Shown here piece after piece: positions 17,882 to 23,153 of a stretch of 64,000 nt of DNA. Position 1 is the stretch's first letter. Each line of letters starts with the position of its first letter. Source of the stretch: Agrococcus beijingensis (lineage in GTDB: Bacteria > Actinomycetota > Actinomycetes > Actinomycetales > Microbacteriaceae). The position numbers and the translations under genes were made by a program. The DNA lies in NCBI RefSeq assembly GCF_030758955.1, contig NZ_CP132360.1, positions 1,155,627 to 1,219,626 on the forward strand, written 5' to 3'. The notes beneath the pieces were generated by a model, which was given only the letters and a program-made list of their open reading frames with translations, did no database searches and was not told where the DNA came from.

Positions 17882-18535
17882 GTGCCTCGCCTGATCCTGC
17901 CGCTGCTGCTCGTCTCCGCCCTCGCCCTCGCGGGCTGCTCGTCGTCGACGCCCGAACCGTCGCCGGCGCCGAGCGGCGGCATCGGGCCGCTGCCTGGCGC
18001 GAGTGAGCCGGCGACGGAGCCTGCGCCGAGCGAGTCGCCCGTCACCGCCGAGGGCGACCCGAACGCTCCCGAGGGCTACCCCATCGCACCCGCGACGGCG
18101 TTCCCCGAGTGCGCGGCGCTCGAGGACGCGGTGGCGCCGCTCATCGCCGGGCTGACGTTCGACCAGGAGGTCAGCGACGCGCAGGACCAGGAGGACATCG
18201 CCGTCGAACGGCAGTGCGCCTGGGTGAACGCGGGCGCCGTCGCCAGCGACCGCACCGTGCGGCTGACGCTCAGCGGCATCCCGTTCGCGCCCGAGGAGCT
18301 CGTGTCGCTGTCGGGCTCGCGCCTCGTCGTGACCGACCCGGCCGCCAACCAGCGGGGGCTGTTCGTCATGGGGGTGGGCGAGCCGCCCGTGCTGGCCGAC
18401 GGCTTCGCCGGCAACGTCAACGTCTTCGACCAGTTCAACACCGTCTCGGTGGGGTTCACCGGCGCCGACTCGGGCTTCACCGGGCAGCAGGCGGTCGACT
18501 CGGCCGTCGCGGTGCACGAGATCCTGCGCGGCTAG
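17882..18535 (+). CDS. putative lipoprotein, unknown function
   Basis: 217 aa. Lipoprotein signal peptide with lipobox LALAGC (Cys19), then a Pro/Ser/Thr/Glu-rich linker to about residue 65 and a globular domain from ~75 with two further cysteines (PECAAL, RQCAWV). The domain resembles DUF3558-like actinobacterial lipoproteins in its spacing, but I do not assign it firmly. Probably anchored outside the membrane. Its TAG stop shares the palindrome CTAG with the stop of convergent kynU. Confidence 0.75.
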   Translation: MPRLILPLLLVSALALAGCSSSTPEPSPAPSGGIGPLPGASEPATEPAPSESPVTAEGDPNAPEGYPIAPATAFPECAALEDAVAPLIAGLTFDQEVSDAQDQEDIAVERQCAWVNAGAVASDRTVRLTLSGIPFAPEELVSLSGSRLVVTDPAANQRGLFVMGVGEPPVLADGFAGNVNVFDQFNTVSVGFTGADSGFTGQQAVDSAVAVHEILRG

Positions 18536-19803
18536 CCCTTCGCGAGCGCCGCCCGCAGCTCCTCCCCGAGCAGCGCGATGCCGAGCTCGACCTCGGCGAA
18601 GGTGGTGCTCAGCGGCGACAGGCCGATCCGGATGCCGTCGGGCGCCCGGAAGTCGCCGATCACGCCCCGCTCCCAGAGCCGCGCGTTGACCTCGCGGAAC
18701 GACGGATGCGTGACCGTGAGATGGCTGCCCCGGTGCGGCCCGGCGACTGGGCTGGCCATCATCGCGCGCTGACCCTCCTCACCCAGCGGCAGCACATGGG
18801 CGGCGAGCGCCTGCTCGGCGAAGTCGGTGAGCGCGACCGACTTCCGGTGCACGGCATCGATGCCGACCTGCTCGAGCAGCTCGAGCATCGCCTCGAGCGC
18901 GACGGTCGCGAGCACCGGCGGGGTGCCGCTGAGGAAGCGGCCGATGCCCGGCGCGGGCTGGTAGCGGTCGGCCATGTCGAACACGCCTGCCGCGCCCATC
19001 CACCCCTGGATCGGCTGCTCGAGCGCGCCCTGCAGGTCAGCGCGCACGTAGCCGAACGCGGGCGAGCCGGGGCCGCCGTTCAGGTACTTGTAGGTGCAGC
19101 CGACGGCGAGGTCGGCGCCGGCCGCGTCGAGGCCGACCGGCAGCACGCCCGCCGAGTGGCAGAGATCCCACAGCACCAGCGCGCCCGCGGCGTGGGCGGC
19201 GGCGGTGATGCCCGGCACGTCGGCGACGAAGCCGGAGCGGTAGGCGACGTGGCACAGCAGCACGAGCGCGGTCTGCTCCCCCACCGCCGCCTCGACCTGC
19301 TCGAGCGTGACGCCCGCCGCGCGGTCGACGCGGATCCAGCGCACGGTGAGACCGCGCTCGGCGGCGATGCCCTCGACCACGAAGCGGTCGGTCGGGAAGC
19401 TGTCGTCGTCGATGACGATCTCCGTGCGGCCCGGCCGCGCGTCGACGGCGGCGCGGGCGAGCTTGTAGAGCAGCACCGTGGTCGAGTCGCCGATGAACGC
19501 CTGGCCCGCCGCCGCACCCACGAGCGCGCCGATGCGGTCGCCCAGGTCGTAGGGGCGACGCATCCACGCCTCGTCCCATCGGCGGATCAGCCGCGTGCCC
19601 CACTCGTCGCCGATGAAGCGCGCGAAGCGCCCGGGCAGGTCGGCGAGCGGCCGGCCCAGCGAGTTGCCGTCGAGGTAGGCGACCACGTCGCCCTCGCGCA
19701 CGAAGCGGCGCGTGTGCTCGGCGAGCGGGTCGGCGGCGTCGAGCTCGGCGGCGAGGGCCGCCATGTCGGGTCGGCCGGTGTCGACAGGTGCTGCGGCGGT
19801 CAT
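18532..19803 (-). CDS. kynU: kynureninase
   Basis: PLP enzyme cleaving kynurenine to anthranilate and alanine. 423 aa; YLDGNSLGRPL near the N-terminus, FIGDSTTVLLYKL, DLCHSAGVLPVGL (PLP-binding Asp/His) and the Schiff-base Lys in GCTYKYLNGGPGSPAF. ATG 19803 overlaps the stop of the amidohydrolase gene (ATGA), so it is the last gene of kynA-amidohydrolase-kynU. With the two upstream genes it would turn tryptophan into anthranilate plus alanine. Confidence 0.95.
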   Translation of the reverse strand: MTAAAPVDTGRPDMAALAAELDAADPLAEHTRRFVREGDVVAYLDGNSLGRPLADLPGRFARFIGDEWGTRLIRRWDEAWMRRPYDLGDRIGALVGAAAGQAFIGDSTTVLLYKLARAAVDARPGRTEIVIDDDSFPTDRFVVEGIAAERGLTVRWIRVDRAAGVTLEQVEAAVGEQTALVLLCHVAYRSGFVADVPGITAAAHAAGALVLWDLCHSAGVLPVGLDAAGADLAVGCTYKYLNGGPGSPAFGYVRADLQGALEQPIQGWMGAAGVFDMADRYQPAPGIGRFLSGTPPVLATVALEAMLELLEQVGIDAVHRKSVALTDFAEQALAAHVLPLGEEGQRAMMASPVAGPHRGSHLTVTHPSFREVNARLWERGVIGDFRAPDGIRIGLSPLSTTFAEVELGIALLGEELRAALAKG

Positions 19804-20858
19804 GCGTCCTCCATTGCGAACCAGGTGTAGGGCAGCGAGCGCGCCTGCTGCAGGTAGGCCAGGAACGACGCGTCGTCGTGCACGTCTGGCGCGGCGACGA
19901 CGCCGATGCTCGGCCCGGGCGGCAGCAGGTGCTCGCTCAGCAGCGCGTCGACGAGCGCGGTGCCCTCGATGCCCGCCTGCCGGAGCGCCGCGAGCTCGAG
20001 CGGGTCGAGGTCGAAGCGAGCGATGCCGTTCCCGAGGTCAGTGCCGTAGGCGACCGCTCCCCCGGCGGCGGCGAAGCGCGCCAGGTTGTCGACGGCGCGC
20101 GCGAAGGCGAGGTCGTCGCCGTCGCGGCCGTGCATCGCGAGCGTCGAGATCCACGTCTGCCGCTCGGCGGCGGCGGCGATCACGTCGTCGGGCAGCCGCT
20201 GCGTCCACGGCGTGTGCGCGAGCACGTCGACACCGGCCGCGAGCGCCCGCTCGACCTGCCCCGCGCCCTGCGCGTGCGCGACGAGCGGCAGGCCGGCGTC
20301 GTGCGCCTCGGCGGCGACGGCGGCGAGCATCGCGTCGTCGGGCACGGGCCCTGCCTCGCTGTTCAGCACGACCTTGATGGCGGATGCGCCTGCCGCGGCC
20401 TGGGCGCGCACCGAGCGCGCCGCGTCGCCCGCGTCGGCGAGCTCGGCGACGGCGCCCGGCGGCGCCCAAGCGCGGTCGGACGGGTAGCCGCCGACCGCCG
20501 TGTGGAACGGGCCGGCGAAGCGCACGTCGACGCCGCGGTGCGCGTCGCGGGTCGCGGCGGCGAGCGCCGGCAGGGCCGCCGGCGCCCACCCGAGGTCGAG
20601 CACCCGGCCTAGCGCGGTCGGCTCGGTCCGGGCGGCGTCCGCGAGGCCCAGGTGCACGTGGGCGTCGGTGATGGGCGGCAGCAGGGCGCCGCCGATGCGC
20701 TTGGCGCTGCGCGGCGGCGCGTGGTCCTCCGGCACCAGACGCATGCCTGTCTCGCTCAGCTCGATCACCGCATCCGTCACCCAGACGCCGCCGATGCGCG
20801 CTCGCTCGACCCTGGCGATCACCGGCTCGGCAGCGGGCTCGGAGGTGGGCTCGCTCAC
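19800..20858 (-). CDS. metal-dependent amidohydrolase of the kynurenine operon
   Basis: 352 aa, TIM-barrel amidohydrolase superfamily. A small N-terminal beta-sandwich leads to the metal motif DAHVHLG (His67, His69). Candidate metal ligands are Lys162 (SAIKVVLN), His195 (LVAHAQG), His215 (LAHTPW) and Asp274 (GTDLGNG). GTG 20858 overlaps the kynA stop (GTGA) and its stop overlaps kynU (ATGA). In a tryptophan-degradation operon the missing step between KynA and KynU is hydrolysis of N-formylkynurenine, and no KynB or alpha/beta-hydrolase formamidase is present here, so I infer that role. Imidazolonepropionase-like or other amide hydrolysis cannot be excluded. Confidence 0.8.
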
Positions 20859-21709
20859 TGGCCGATCCGCGTGCGCACCGCGTAGAGCTCGGGGAAGAAG
20901 GTCAGGTCGAGCGCGCGCCTCAGGAAGCCGACGCCGCTCGAGCCGCCGGTGCCGGGCTTCTCGCCGATCGTGCGGGTGACGGTGCGGAGGTGCCGGAAGC
21001 GCCAGAACTGGAAGTTGTCCTCGAGGTCGACGAGCTCCTCGCACGTCTCGTACGCGCGCCAGTGGTCATCAGCGGCCTCGTAGATGCGCTGGAAGACCGG
21101 CACGAGCTCCTCGGTGTAGACGTGCGCCTGCGTCACGTCGCGCTCGAGCAGCTCCTGCGGCACGGCGTGACCGCGGCGGGCGAGGTGGCGCAGGAACTCG
21201 TCGTACAGGCTCGGCCGGTGCAGCTCGGCCTCGAGCGCCGCATGGTCGGCGGCATTCGACTCGAACACCTGCAGCATGCGCTCGTGCTTGTTGCCGAGCG
21301 CGAACTCGACGCATCGGTACTGGGCCGACTGGAAGCCGGAGGCGCTCGCGAGCGCCCCGCGGAACTGCGCGTACTCGGTGGGCGTGAGCGTGGCCAGCAC
21401 CGACCACTGCTGCGTCAGCACCTCCTGGATGTGCTTGACGCGCGCGATGCGCTTCAGCGCCGCGCCCAGGTCGTCGGCCGCGAGCTGCACGCGGGCGTCG
21501 TCGAGCTCGTGGATGACGAGCTTCAGCCACAGCTCGGTGGTCTGGTGCTGGATGATGAACAGCAGCTCGTCGTGGTGCTCGGGCTCGCTCCTGGGATGCT
21601 GCGCCGCGAGCAGCGTGTCGAGCCCGAGGTAGGAGCCGTACGTCATGCGCTCGCTCAGGTCGGTGACGATCGTCGACTCGATCTCGCGGGTGTTGTGCTC
21701 GACAGACAC
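20855..21709 (-). CDS. kynA: tryptophan 2,3-dioxygenase
   Basis: Heme dioxygenase oxidising L-tryptophan to N-formylkynurenine; first gene of the operon. 284 aa, close to the bacterial norm. Seen: [29 protein letters not shown] (substrate pocket) and [12 protein letters not shown] with the likely axial heme His, followed by [18 protein letters not shown] 21709 has GGGAGG five bases upstream. The frame continues open upstream through a 15-bp tandem repeat (DPEPR units), which I regard as leader because of that binding site. Confidence 0.95.
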
Positions 21710-21730
21710 GCGGGCCTCCCTTGGCTGTGG

Positions 21731-21796
21731 CTCAGGGTCTCTGGGCTCAGGGTCTCTGGGCTCAGGGTCTCTGGCCTCAGGGTCTCTGTGCTCAGG
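21731..21796. repeat. 15-bp tandem repeat (4.4 units) in the kynA leader
   Basis: Units ctcagggtctctggg at 21731, 21746, 21761 and 21776 plus a 6-base remnant; the first two are identical, the last two differ by 1-2 bases. TACCGT at 21802-21807 on the minus strand is a possible kynA -10, so transcription would begin at the array edge and the repeats would sit in the leader. The length is a multiple of three and in frame with kynA. Confidence 0.85.
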
Positions 21797-21842
21797 CCAC
21801 CACGGTAACGCGCCCGCGAGCGCTCGCGTCAGGCACCGCCGA

Positions 21843-21848
21843 TAGCCT
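21843..21848 (+). promoter_or_regulatory. -10 box of the M20 peptidase gene (leaderless type)
   Basis: TAGCCT, 6 bases, GTG 21855. Confidence 0.5.
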
Positions 21849-21854
21849 GCGCGG

Positions 21855-23153
21855 GTGGTGCTCATCAACGACGCGGCCGTCGACGACCTGATCGCGCTCG
21901 TGCGCGTGCCGACCGAGCGGGGCGAGCAGCTGCCGGCATTCCAGGAGGCGCTGCGCGAGCGCTTCCCGCGGCTGTTCGCCGCGCTCGAGGTCGAGTCGAT
22001 CGACGCGACGCTGCTCGCGCGCTGGCCCGGGCGCGGCGAGGGCGCTCCGGCGCTGCTCTTGGCGCACCAGGATGTCGTGCCCGCCCCGCCTGCCGGGTGG
22101 ACGCATCCGCCGTACTCCGGCCACCGCGACGACACGCACGTGTGGGGGCGCGGCACGCTCGACGACAAGGGCTCGCTCGTGGCGATCTGCACGGCGATCG
22201 AGGCGCTGCTCGAGGCGGGCTTCGCGCCCGAGCGCGACGTGTGGCTCGTCTTCGGGCACGACGAGGAGACCATGGGCACGGGCGCGGCCGCGGCGATCGC
22301 CGAGCTCGACGCCCGCGGCGTGCGGCCCGCGTGGGCGCTCGACGAGGGCGGCGCGATCATCGAGCCGCCGATCGCGGGCGTGCCGCGCGACGTGGCGGTC
22401 GTCGGGCTGGCGGAGAAGGGCTTCGCGAACATCCGGATGCGCGTGGCCCAGACGGGCGGGCACGCGTCGACGCCGCCGCGCCTGCCCGCGACGTCGCGGC
22501 TGGCGCGCGCGATCCGGCGGCTCGACTTCGCGACGTGGCCGCGGTCGCTGCCGGAGCCGGCGCTGCGCATGCTCGAGCTGCTGGGCGCCGAGGTGCCCGG
22601 CGCCCAGGGCGCGGTGCTGCGCAACGTGCGACGTGCGCGGCCGCTCGTCGAGCGGATCCTGGCGCGCGAGGACGAGACGCGCGCGATGCTCGCGACCACC
22701 GCGGTGGTCACGCAGCTGTCGGGCTCGGCGGCCCCCAACGCGCTCGCCGAGGAGGCCGTCGCGATCGTGAACGCCCGCATCGCGGTCGGCTCGAGCGTCG
22801 ACGAGACGGTCGCGTTCATGCGCCGCGCGATCGCCGACCCGCGCGTCGAGCTCGATGTCGTGCACGGCCACGACCCGAGCCCCGAGAGCCCCGCGGCCGG
22901 CGCCGGCTGGAGCGACATCGAGGCGGCGATCGTGCGGCTGCGGCCCGACGTGCTGGTCGTGCCCTACGTGATGCTCGGCGGCACCGACGGCCGGCACGCG
23001 CACCGCATCACCGACCGCGTCTACCGCTTCACGCCGTTCGAGATGACCCGCGACGACCGTCTGACGCTGCACGCGCGCGACGAGCGCATCCGCATCGACA
23101 CCTGGCTGGCGGGCTGCCGCTGGTACGCCGACCTCATCGAGACGAGCTGCTGA
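21855..23153 (+). CDS. M20-family metallopeptidase (dipeptidase/carboxypeptidase-like)
   Basis: 432 aa. Di-zinc residues are visible in [23 protein letters not shown] and GHDEETMG, with the dimerisation-domain His in [11 protein letters not shown] and a C-terminal metal His in GGTDGRHAH. The size and motifs resemble CPG70/carboxypeptidase S-type M20 enzymes, which hydrolyse peptides or N-acyl amino acids; the substrate is unknown. Divergent from kynA. Its stop overlaps the next ATG by one base (TGATG). Confidence 0.92.

Follow-up and report, generated by a model that had tools for sequence, protein, structure and literature searches.

Tryptophan dioxygenase (TDO, KynA) yields N-formylkynurenine and kynureninase (KynU) uses kynurenine, and a formamidase is therefore expected between the two. 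The kynA, kynB and kynU genes of Streptomyces coelicolor have reportedly been studied. The formamidase has been described as a notable exception to the conserved character of tryptophan catabolism: eukaryotes employ serine enzymes of the alpha/beta-hydrolase type, and prokaryotes employ the unrelated KynB (PMC4243253). The same paper describes KynB as a binuclear zinc enzyme that resembles, to some extent, metalloenzymes of the amidohydrolase superfamily, and states that its sequences match no known amidase or amidohydrolase (PMC4243253). In mycemycin biosynthesis, an "amidohydrolase," MymD/MyeD, is proposed to cleave N-formylkynurenine or its 5-chloro derivative between TDO and kynureninase, and deletion of myeD abolished mycemycins A and B; MymD/MyeD are reported to have formed inclusion bodies, and the step was proposed without an assay (PMC5867642).

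The window analyzed here is a stretch of 64,000 nucleotides from the genome of Agrococcus beijingensis (2.89 Mb, a single contig). In this window, a gene for an amidohydrolase (hereafter AH) lies between kynA and kynU (Table 1), and we regard AH, with a probability of about 0.85, as the amidohydrolase-type N-formyl-L-kynurenine formamidase of a coupled tryptophan-to-anthranilate operon. This predicted function, for which the initial annotation had put AH forward as a candidate new enzyme, is supported by gene context, by distribution among genomes and by conservation of the active site. The coupling of the three genes through GTGA and ATGA overlaps, also proposed there, was borne out. The three frames are genuine genes, judging from the 1375 AH homologs obtained at E ≤ 1e-3 (7998 candidates scored) and from the matches of the flanking products to family models. 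The matches to the TDO and kynureninase models cover almost the whole of KynA and KynU, with scores somewhat below the strict equivalog cut-offs: KynA gives 382.6 bits to TIGR03036 over residues 17–282, slightly under the cut-off of 390.7, and KynU gives 206.2 bits to TIGR01814 (cut-off 246.4) and 71.2 bits to PF22580 KYNU_C, above the cut-off of 27. AH shares 83% identity with its counterpart in Agrococcus sp. HG114, and the 120 homologs listed carry source names such as "hydrolase," "hypothetical protein" and "imidazolonepropionase-like" amidohydrolase.

Table 1. Features of the kyn operon of A. beijingensis, in window coordinates
Feature	Position	Strand	Details
kynA, tryptophan 2,3-dioxygenase	20855..21709	minus	284 aa, GTG start; TIGR03036, PF03301
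AH, amidohydrolase, predicted N-formylkynurenine hydrolase	19800..20858	minus	352 aa, GTG start
kynU, kynureninase	18532..19803	minus	423 aa, ATG start; TIGR01814, PF22580 KYNU_C
GTGA overlap of AH start and kynA stop	20855..20858	minus	sequence
ATGA overlap of kynU start and AH stop	19800..19803	minus	sequence
GGGAGG, probable kynA ribosome-binding site	21715..21720	minus	5 bases upstream of GTG

The AH protein carries the ligand set HxH, Lys, His, His, Asp of the amidohydrolase superfamily, as found in the arginine carboxypeptidase/prolidase group. The five ligands named in the initial annotation (His67, His69, His195, His215, and Asp274) stand where it had placed them and are invariant in 32 aligned homologs. 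A sixth ligand that it had overlooked, Lys162, is equally invariant in the 32 and occupies the aligned position of the lysine found in the arginine-carboxypeptidase group. The metal ligands are common to kyn-linked and unlinked amidohydrolases, and Lys162 is kept in 86 of 86 rows of the former and 19 of 19 of the latter, while other residues differ between the two sets: Tyr125, Trp131, and Gly198 are all kept in the 86 kyn-linked rows and occur in nine, ten and none, respectively, of the 19 unlinked ones. Candidates for contact with the substrate are Tyr125, Trp131, and Arg261. A structure model of AH aligns to amidohydrolase structures over nearly the whole length, predicting a TIM-barrel amidohydrolase fold. 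The nearest solved structures are those of arginine carboxypeptidase, prolidases and ochratoxin amidohydrolases, to which AH shows 15–21% identity in the top 17 rows. The match of AH to PF01979 (21.2 bits, E 1.9e-4) falls under the 25-bit cut-off, and several homologs among the matches listed carry this domain. AH has no match at E ≤ 1 to TIGR03035, the KynB model, or to any alpha/beta-hydrolase family in Pfam. KynB or AFMID structures are not among the Foldseek and VIA matches listed, an absence that proves nothing.

In the proposed scheme, KynA cleaves the indole ring of tryptophan, yielding N-formylkynurenine, and KynU converts kynurenine into anthranilate and alanine, both functions being established for the respective families. 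Between them, AH would hold two metal ions, probably by means of His67/His69, Lys162, His195/His215, and Asp274, with Lys162 probably carboxylated, and these metals would activate water for attack on the formyl carbonyl, producing formate and kynurenine. Gene order, conservation, the ligand set, the modeled fold and the distribution are observed here; substrate, metals and mechanism we infer from homology and context. KynB would resemble AH in the predicted reaction and in a binuclear metal site, but the two differ in fold and sequence. The alpha/beta-hydrolase-type kynurenine formamidase (KFase, AFMID type) is a serine hydrolase without metal, whereas AH is a predicted metal-dependent TIM-barrel amidohydrolase. 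AH very probably carries out the missing second step, with a modeled fold other than the two established for kynurenine formamidase. Imidazolonepropionase HutI belongs to the same superfamily as AH, and Zn-dependent arginine carboxypeptidase, Xaa-Pro dipeptidase and ochratoxin amidohydrolase (3mtw, 3be7, 2qs8, 4c65, 8ihs) share 17–21% identity with it but act on other substrates. MymD/MyeD, which resemble AH in the step proposed for them, have 513 aa against 352 aa and belong to secondary metabolism (PMC5867642).

An alignment of 32 AH homologs, chosen for sequence spread, served as query, and the best 80 of at least 314 relatives in named genomes were fetched by AH sequence and scanned with kynA and kynU profiles within a 4-kb range. 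The neighborhood of kynA, AH, and kynU that the initial annotation had suggested looking for does recur across actinobacteria: both kyn genes lie within 4 kb of AH in 53 of the 80 loci, kynA only in nine, kynU or a kynU-like gene only in 14, and neither in four. Seven of the 14 have a clear kynU and the other seven just a divergent, oppositely directed kynU-like gene (L025, L031, L038, L050, L070, L077, and L081), so that 69 of the 80 loci are counted as clearly linked to kynA and/or kynU, with the divergent gene in seven more. For five of the nine kynA-only loci, kynU may have been missed because the sequence ends about 1 kb or less past AH. As for the four loci scored without kyn genes, two (L009 and L034) end shortly past AH, L055 has a kynA tail at its cut end, and that of a Frondihabitans (L041) is truly unlinked. 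Kyn-linked loci are found in seven families, Microbacteriaceae, Micrococcaceae, Promicromonosporaceae, Cellulomonadaceae, Nocardiaceae, Micromonosporaceae, and Nocardioidaceae, with the alternative order kynA-kynU-AH in Actinoplanes. Lacisediminihabitans changchengi harbors two AH genes encoding identical proteins on different scaffolds, each beside kynA and kynU, which reflects either a recent duplication or an assembly artifact.

The distribution was further followed in 394 genomes drawn evenly from the class. AH proper, comprising 19 matches that score 285 bits or more and one fragment beside kynA (G336, 129.8 bits), occurs in 20 of them and is kyn-linked in all 20, as seen from adjacent coordinates in 14 cases and from fetched loci in six (G106, G185, G303, G311, G319, and G336; G185 through kynU alone). 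In G185, AH is paired with kynU, and kynA is found by itself on a different contig. In G106, the kynA and kynU matches are each split into two parts that differ in frame, and these copies may be decayed. None of 19 lower-scoring amidohydrolases fetched from the next rows, a partial set with some members on short contigs, is kyn-linked. In the tree, 18 of these 19 cluster together (support 82/98, not starred), and the remaining one, L133, has a long branch and an unsure position. Within family f1, AH is present in 16 of 16 TDO-positive genomes and in none of five TDO-negative ones, two of which have weak matches only.

The initial annotation had also stated that the operon is accompanied by neither of the established formamidase types, and the searches of the whole A. 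beijingensis genome found no canonical KynB and no alpha/beta-hydrolase resembling the type seen in kyn operons. Its one PF04199 protein gives 39.5 bits to the KynB model, against a cut-off of 223, and is encoded far from the operon. It was ruled out as a canonical KynB, and its nearest solved structures are isatin hydrolases; its gene (C1:775992-776510) adjoins one resembling an ABC substrate-binding protein. TIGR03035 found nothing above cut-off in the 394 class genomes or in a second set, 50 AH genomes hand-picked from the 80 loci, and detection of KynB lacks a positive control, since none of 14 control genomes exceeded the cut-off either. Matches below cut-off were found in 192 of the 394 (best 149.9 bits) and in 32 of the 50 (best 136.7 bits), and 18 of the 50 gave no match at E ≤ 1e-3. 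TDO is above its own strict cut-off in just 24 class genomes; most class TDOs fall below it, so the KynB cut-off may likewise be too strict for actinobacteria. In Leifsonia sp. Leaf336, which has AH, a KynB-family gene scoring below cut-off (86.5 bits) is located roughly 6.5 kb away from kynU.

As to the alpha/beta-hydrolase type, the A. beijingensis genome has five PF07859 and two PF20434 matches, none of them kyn-operon-like at E ≤ 1e-15. Its best alpha/beta-hydrolase was rejected as the formamidase: it is an HSL-type esterase with no KFase in the best 60 of 130 matches, and may still have the activity. Among ten proteins scanned beside kynA in AH-less genomes (ten loci, one each), one is an alpha/beta-hydrolase, a PF20434 protein downstream of kynA-kynU in L096. 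This protein closely resembles a carboxylesterase of solved structure (9x6a), matches the fly KFase 4e11 weakly (E 9e-4), and has distant relatives by tblastn in L100, L105, and L116 among others. Like AH, it is a hydrolase in a kynA-kynU operon neighborhood, but in other lineages. Counted at E ≤ 1e-15 as a candidate formamidase, the PF20434 hydrolase occurs in 144 of 236 TDO-positive against 24 of 158 TDO-negative class genomes, and at least 41 class genomes among the matches listed have it within about 2.2 kb of TDO.

Among the TDO-positive class genomes, the PF20434 hydrolase is found in none of the 20 with AH as opposed to 144 of the 216 without; in family f34, where it is mostly far from TDO, the corresponding numbers are none of four and 22 of 23. 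Fisher tests give p = 1.6e-9 for the class and 2.8e-4 for f34, with shared ancestry ignored. The exclusion is not strict, because six of the 50 AH genomes hold both (two Oerskovia, two Rhodococcus, one Microbacterium, and one Nocardia). AH and the alpha/beta type are strongly, not strictly, alternative. In 11 of the 50 genomes, no type searched for other than AH offers a candidate, since these have TDO and AH without a TIGR03035 match (E ≤ 1e-3) or an alpha/beta match (E ≤ 1e-15). Additional formamidases probably exist, because 72 of the 216 TDO genomes without AH lack the PF20434 hydrolase as well.

Several other roles of AH may be weighed against these observations. If KynU cleaved N-formylkynurenine directly, AH would serve to deformylate the resulting N-formylanthranilate. 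In seven of the 80 loci AH does adjoin a clear kynU with no kynA nearby, and in seven more it is near the divergent kynU-like gene, and the present observations do not separate the two aryl-formamide substrates; this role is nevertheless improbable, as N-formylkynurenine is a poor substrate for kynureninases, AH is usually upstream of kynU, and four loci with complete flanks (L017, L023, L029, and L056) have an AH-kynA pair and no adjacent kynU, kynureninase being located elsewhere in these genomes. Cleavage of another amide or peptide bond connected with the use of tryptophan or kynurenine, such as one in a dipeptide or an N-acyl amino acid, would suit the activities of the nearest solved relatives and the ten AH genomes out of 50 with no detectable TDO. 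However, the identity to those structures is as low as noted above, and the 11 genomes described above would then have TDO and no candidate for the formamidase step, which makes such a substrate quite unlikely.

It is also conceivable that the formamidase is the isatin-hydrolase-like PF04199 protein or the HSL-type esterase, with AH as an accessory. Both are encoded in the A. beijingensis genome, and the sub-cut-off KynB-family matches in 32 of the 50 AH genomes agree with such a reading, but neither is near the kyn operon there, the 18 genomes without a TIGR03035 match have AH all the same, and it is AH, not the others, that tracks kynA and kynU across genomes. We judge this assignment very improbable.

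The formamidase reading of AH has to accommodate the ten genomes of 50 in which TDO gave no match. Five are bins or MAGs that may be incomplete (G411, G416, G420, G428, and G438), and five are isolates, one Frondihabitans (G422) and four Frigoribacterium (G423, G429, G436, and G440). In Frondihabitans sucicola (G422), the kynureninase match is split into two parts that differ in frame, and this copy may be decayed. The Frigoribacterium isolates (L042, L051, L063, and L074) retain AH beside kynU with no TDO found in the genomes, and in L074 a methyltransferase gene is upstream of AH-kynU. A search for IDO in the ten genomes and four more gave no match; the controls were silent too, and the result is void. 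In an uncultured actinobacterial clade (eight tree rows), AH is near a divergent kynureninase-like gene (28–33% identity), without TDO beside it; two of these genes that were scanned score 103 and 108 bits to TIGR01814 against the cut-off of 246. The same clade has uvrB or uvrA near AH in L025, L031, L038, and L081; in two of these loci, L031 and L038, the gene between AH and the kynureninase-like gene encodes a molybdopterin oxidoreductase. In TDO-less genomes, either N-formylkynurenine comes from elsewhere or the role of AH is wider. For Frigoribacterium, the source of N-formylkynurenine for salvage may be, for example, tryptophan photo-oxidation on leaves.

In the open-licence literature, no report was found naming the AH family as a formamidase. 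AH is likely to represent a third family of kynurenine formamidases, which evolved independently within the amidohydrolase superfamily and serves actinobacterial tryptophan catabolism instead of KynB and the alpha/beta type, and in TDO-less Frigoribacterium it may salvage extracellular N-formylkynurenine. If this is true, AH is a third unrelated solution beside KynB and the alpha/beta-hydrolase KFase, and its family fills a gap of metabolic annotation in many actinobacteria. The family has clear signature residues and is directly assayable.

Promoter and terminator scans of window positions 18300–22100 found none. The GGGAGG upstream of kynA is probably a ribosome-binding site, judging from the consensus. 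The kynA leader contains a 15-bp tandem repeat (GGCTCAGGGTCTCTG, 4.5 copies, window 21729–21796), located between this site and a promoter-like block, and by eye the repeat is absent from the 200 bases that precede kynA at eight other Agrococcus loci. A sequence block similar to GGCGCGTTACCGTGG is seen by eye at window 21800–21814 and upstream of kynA in L003, L005, L006, L007, and L008, and is possibly a promoter shared by these Agrococcus loci.
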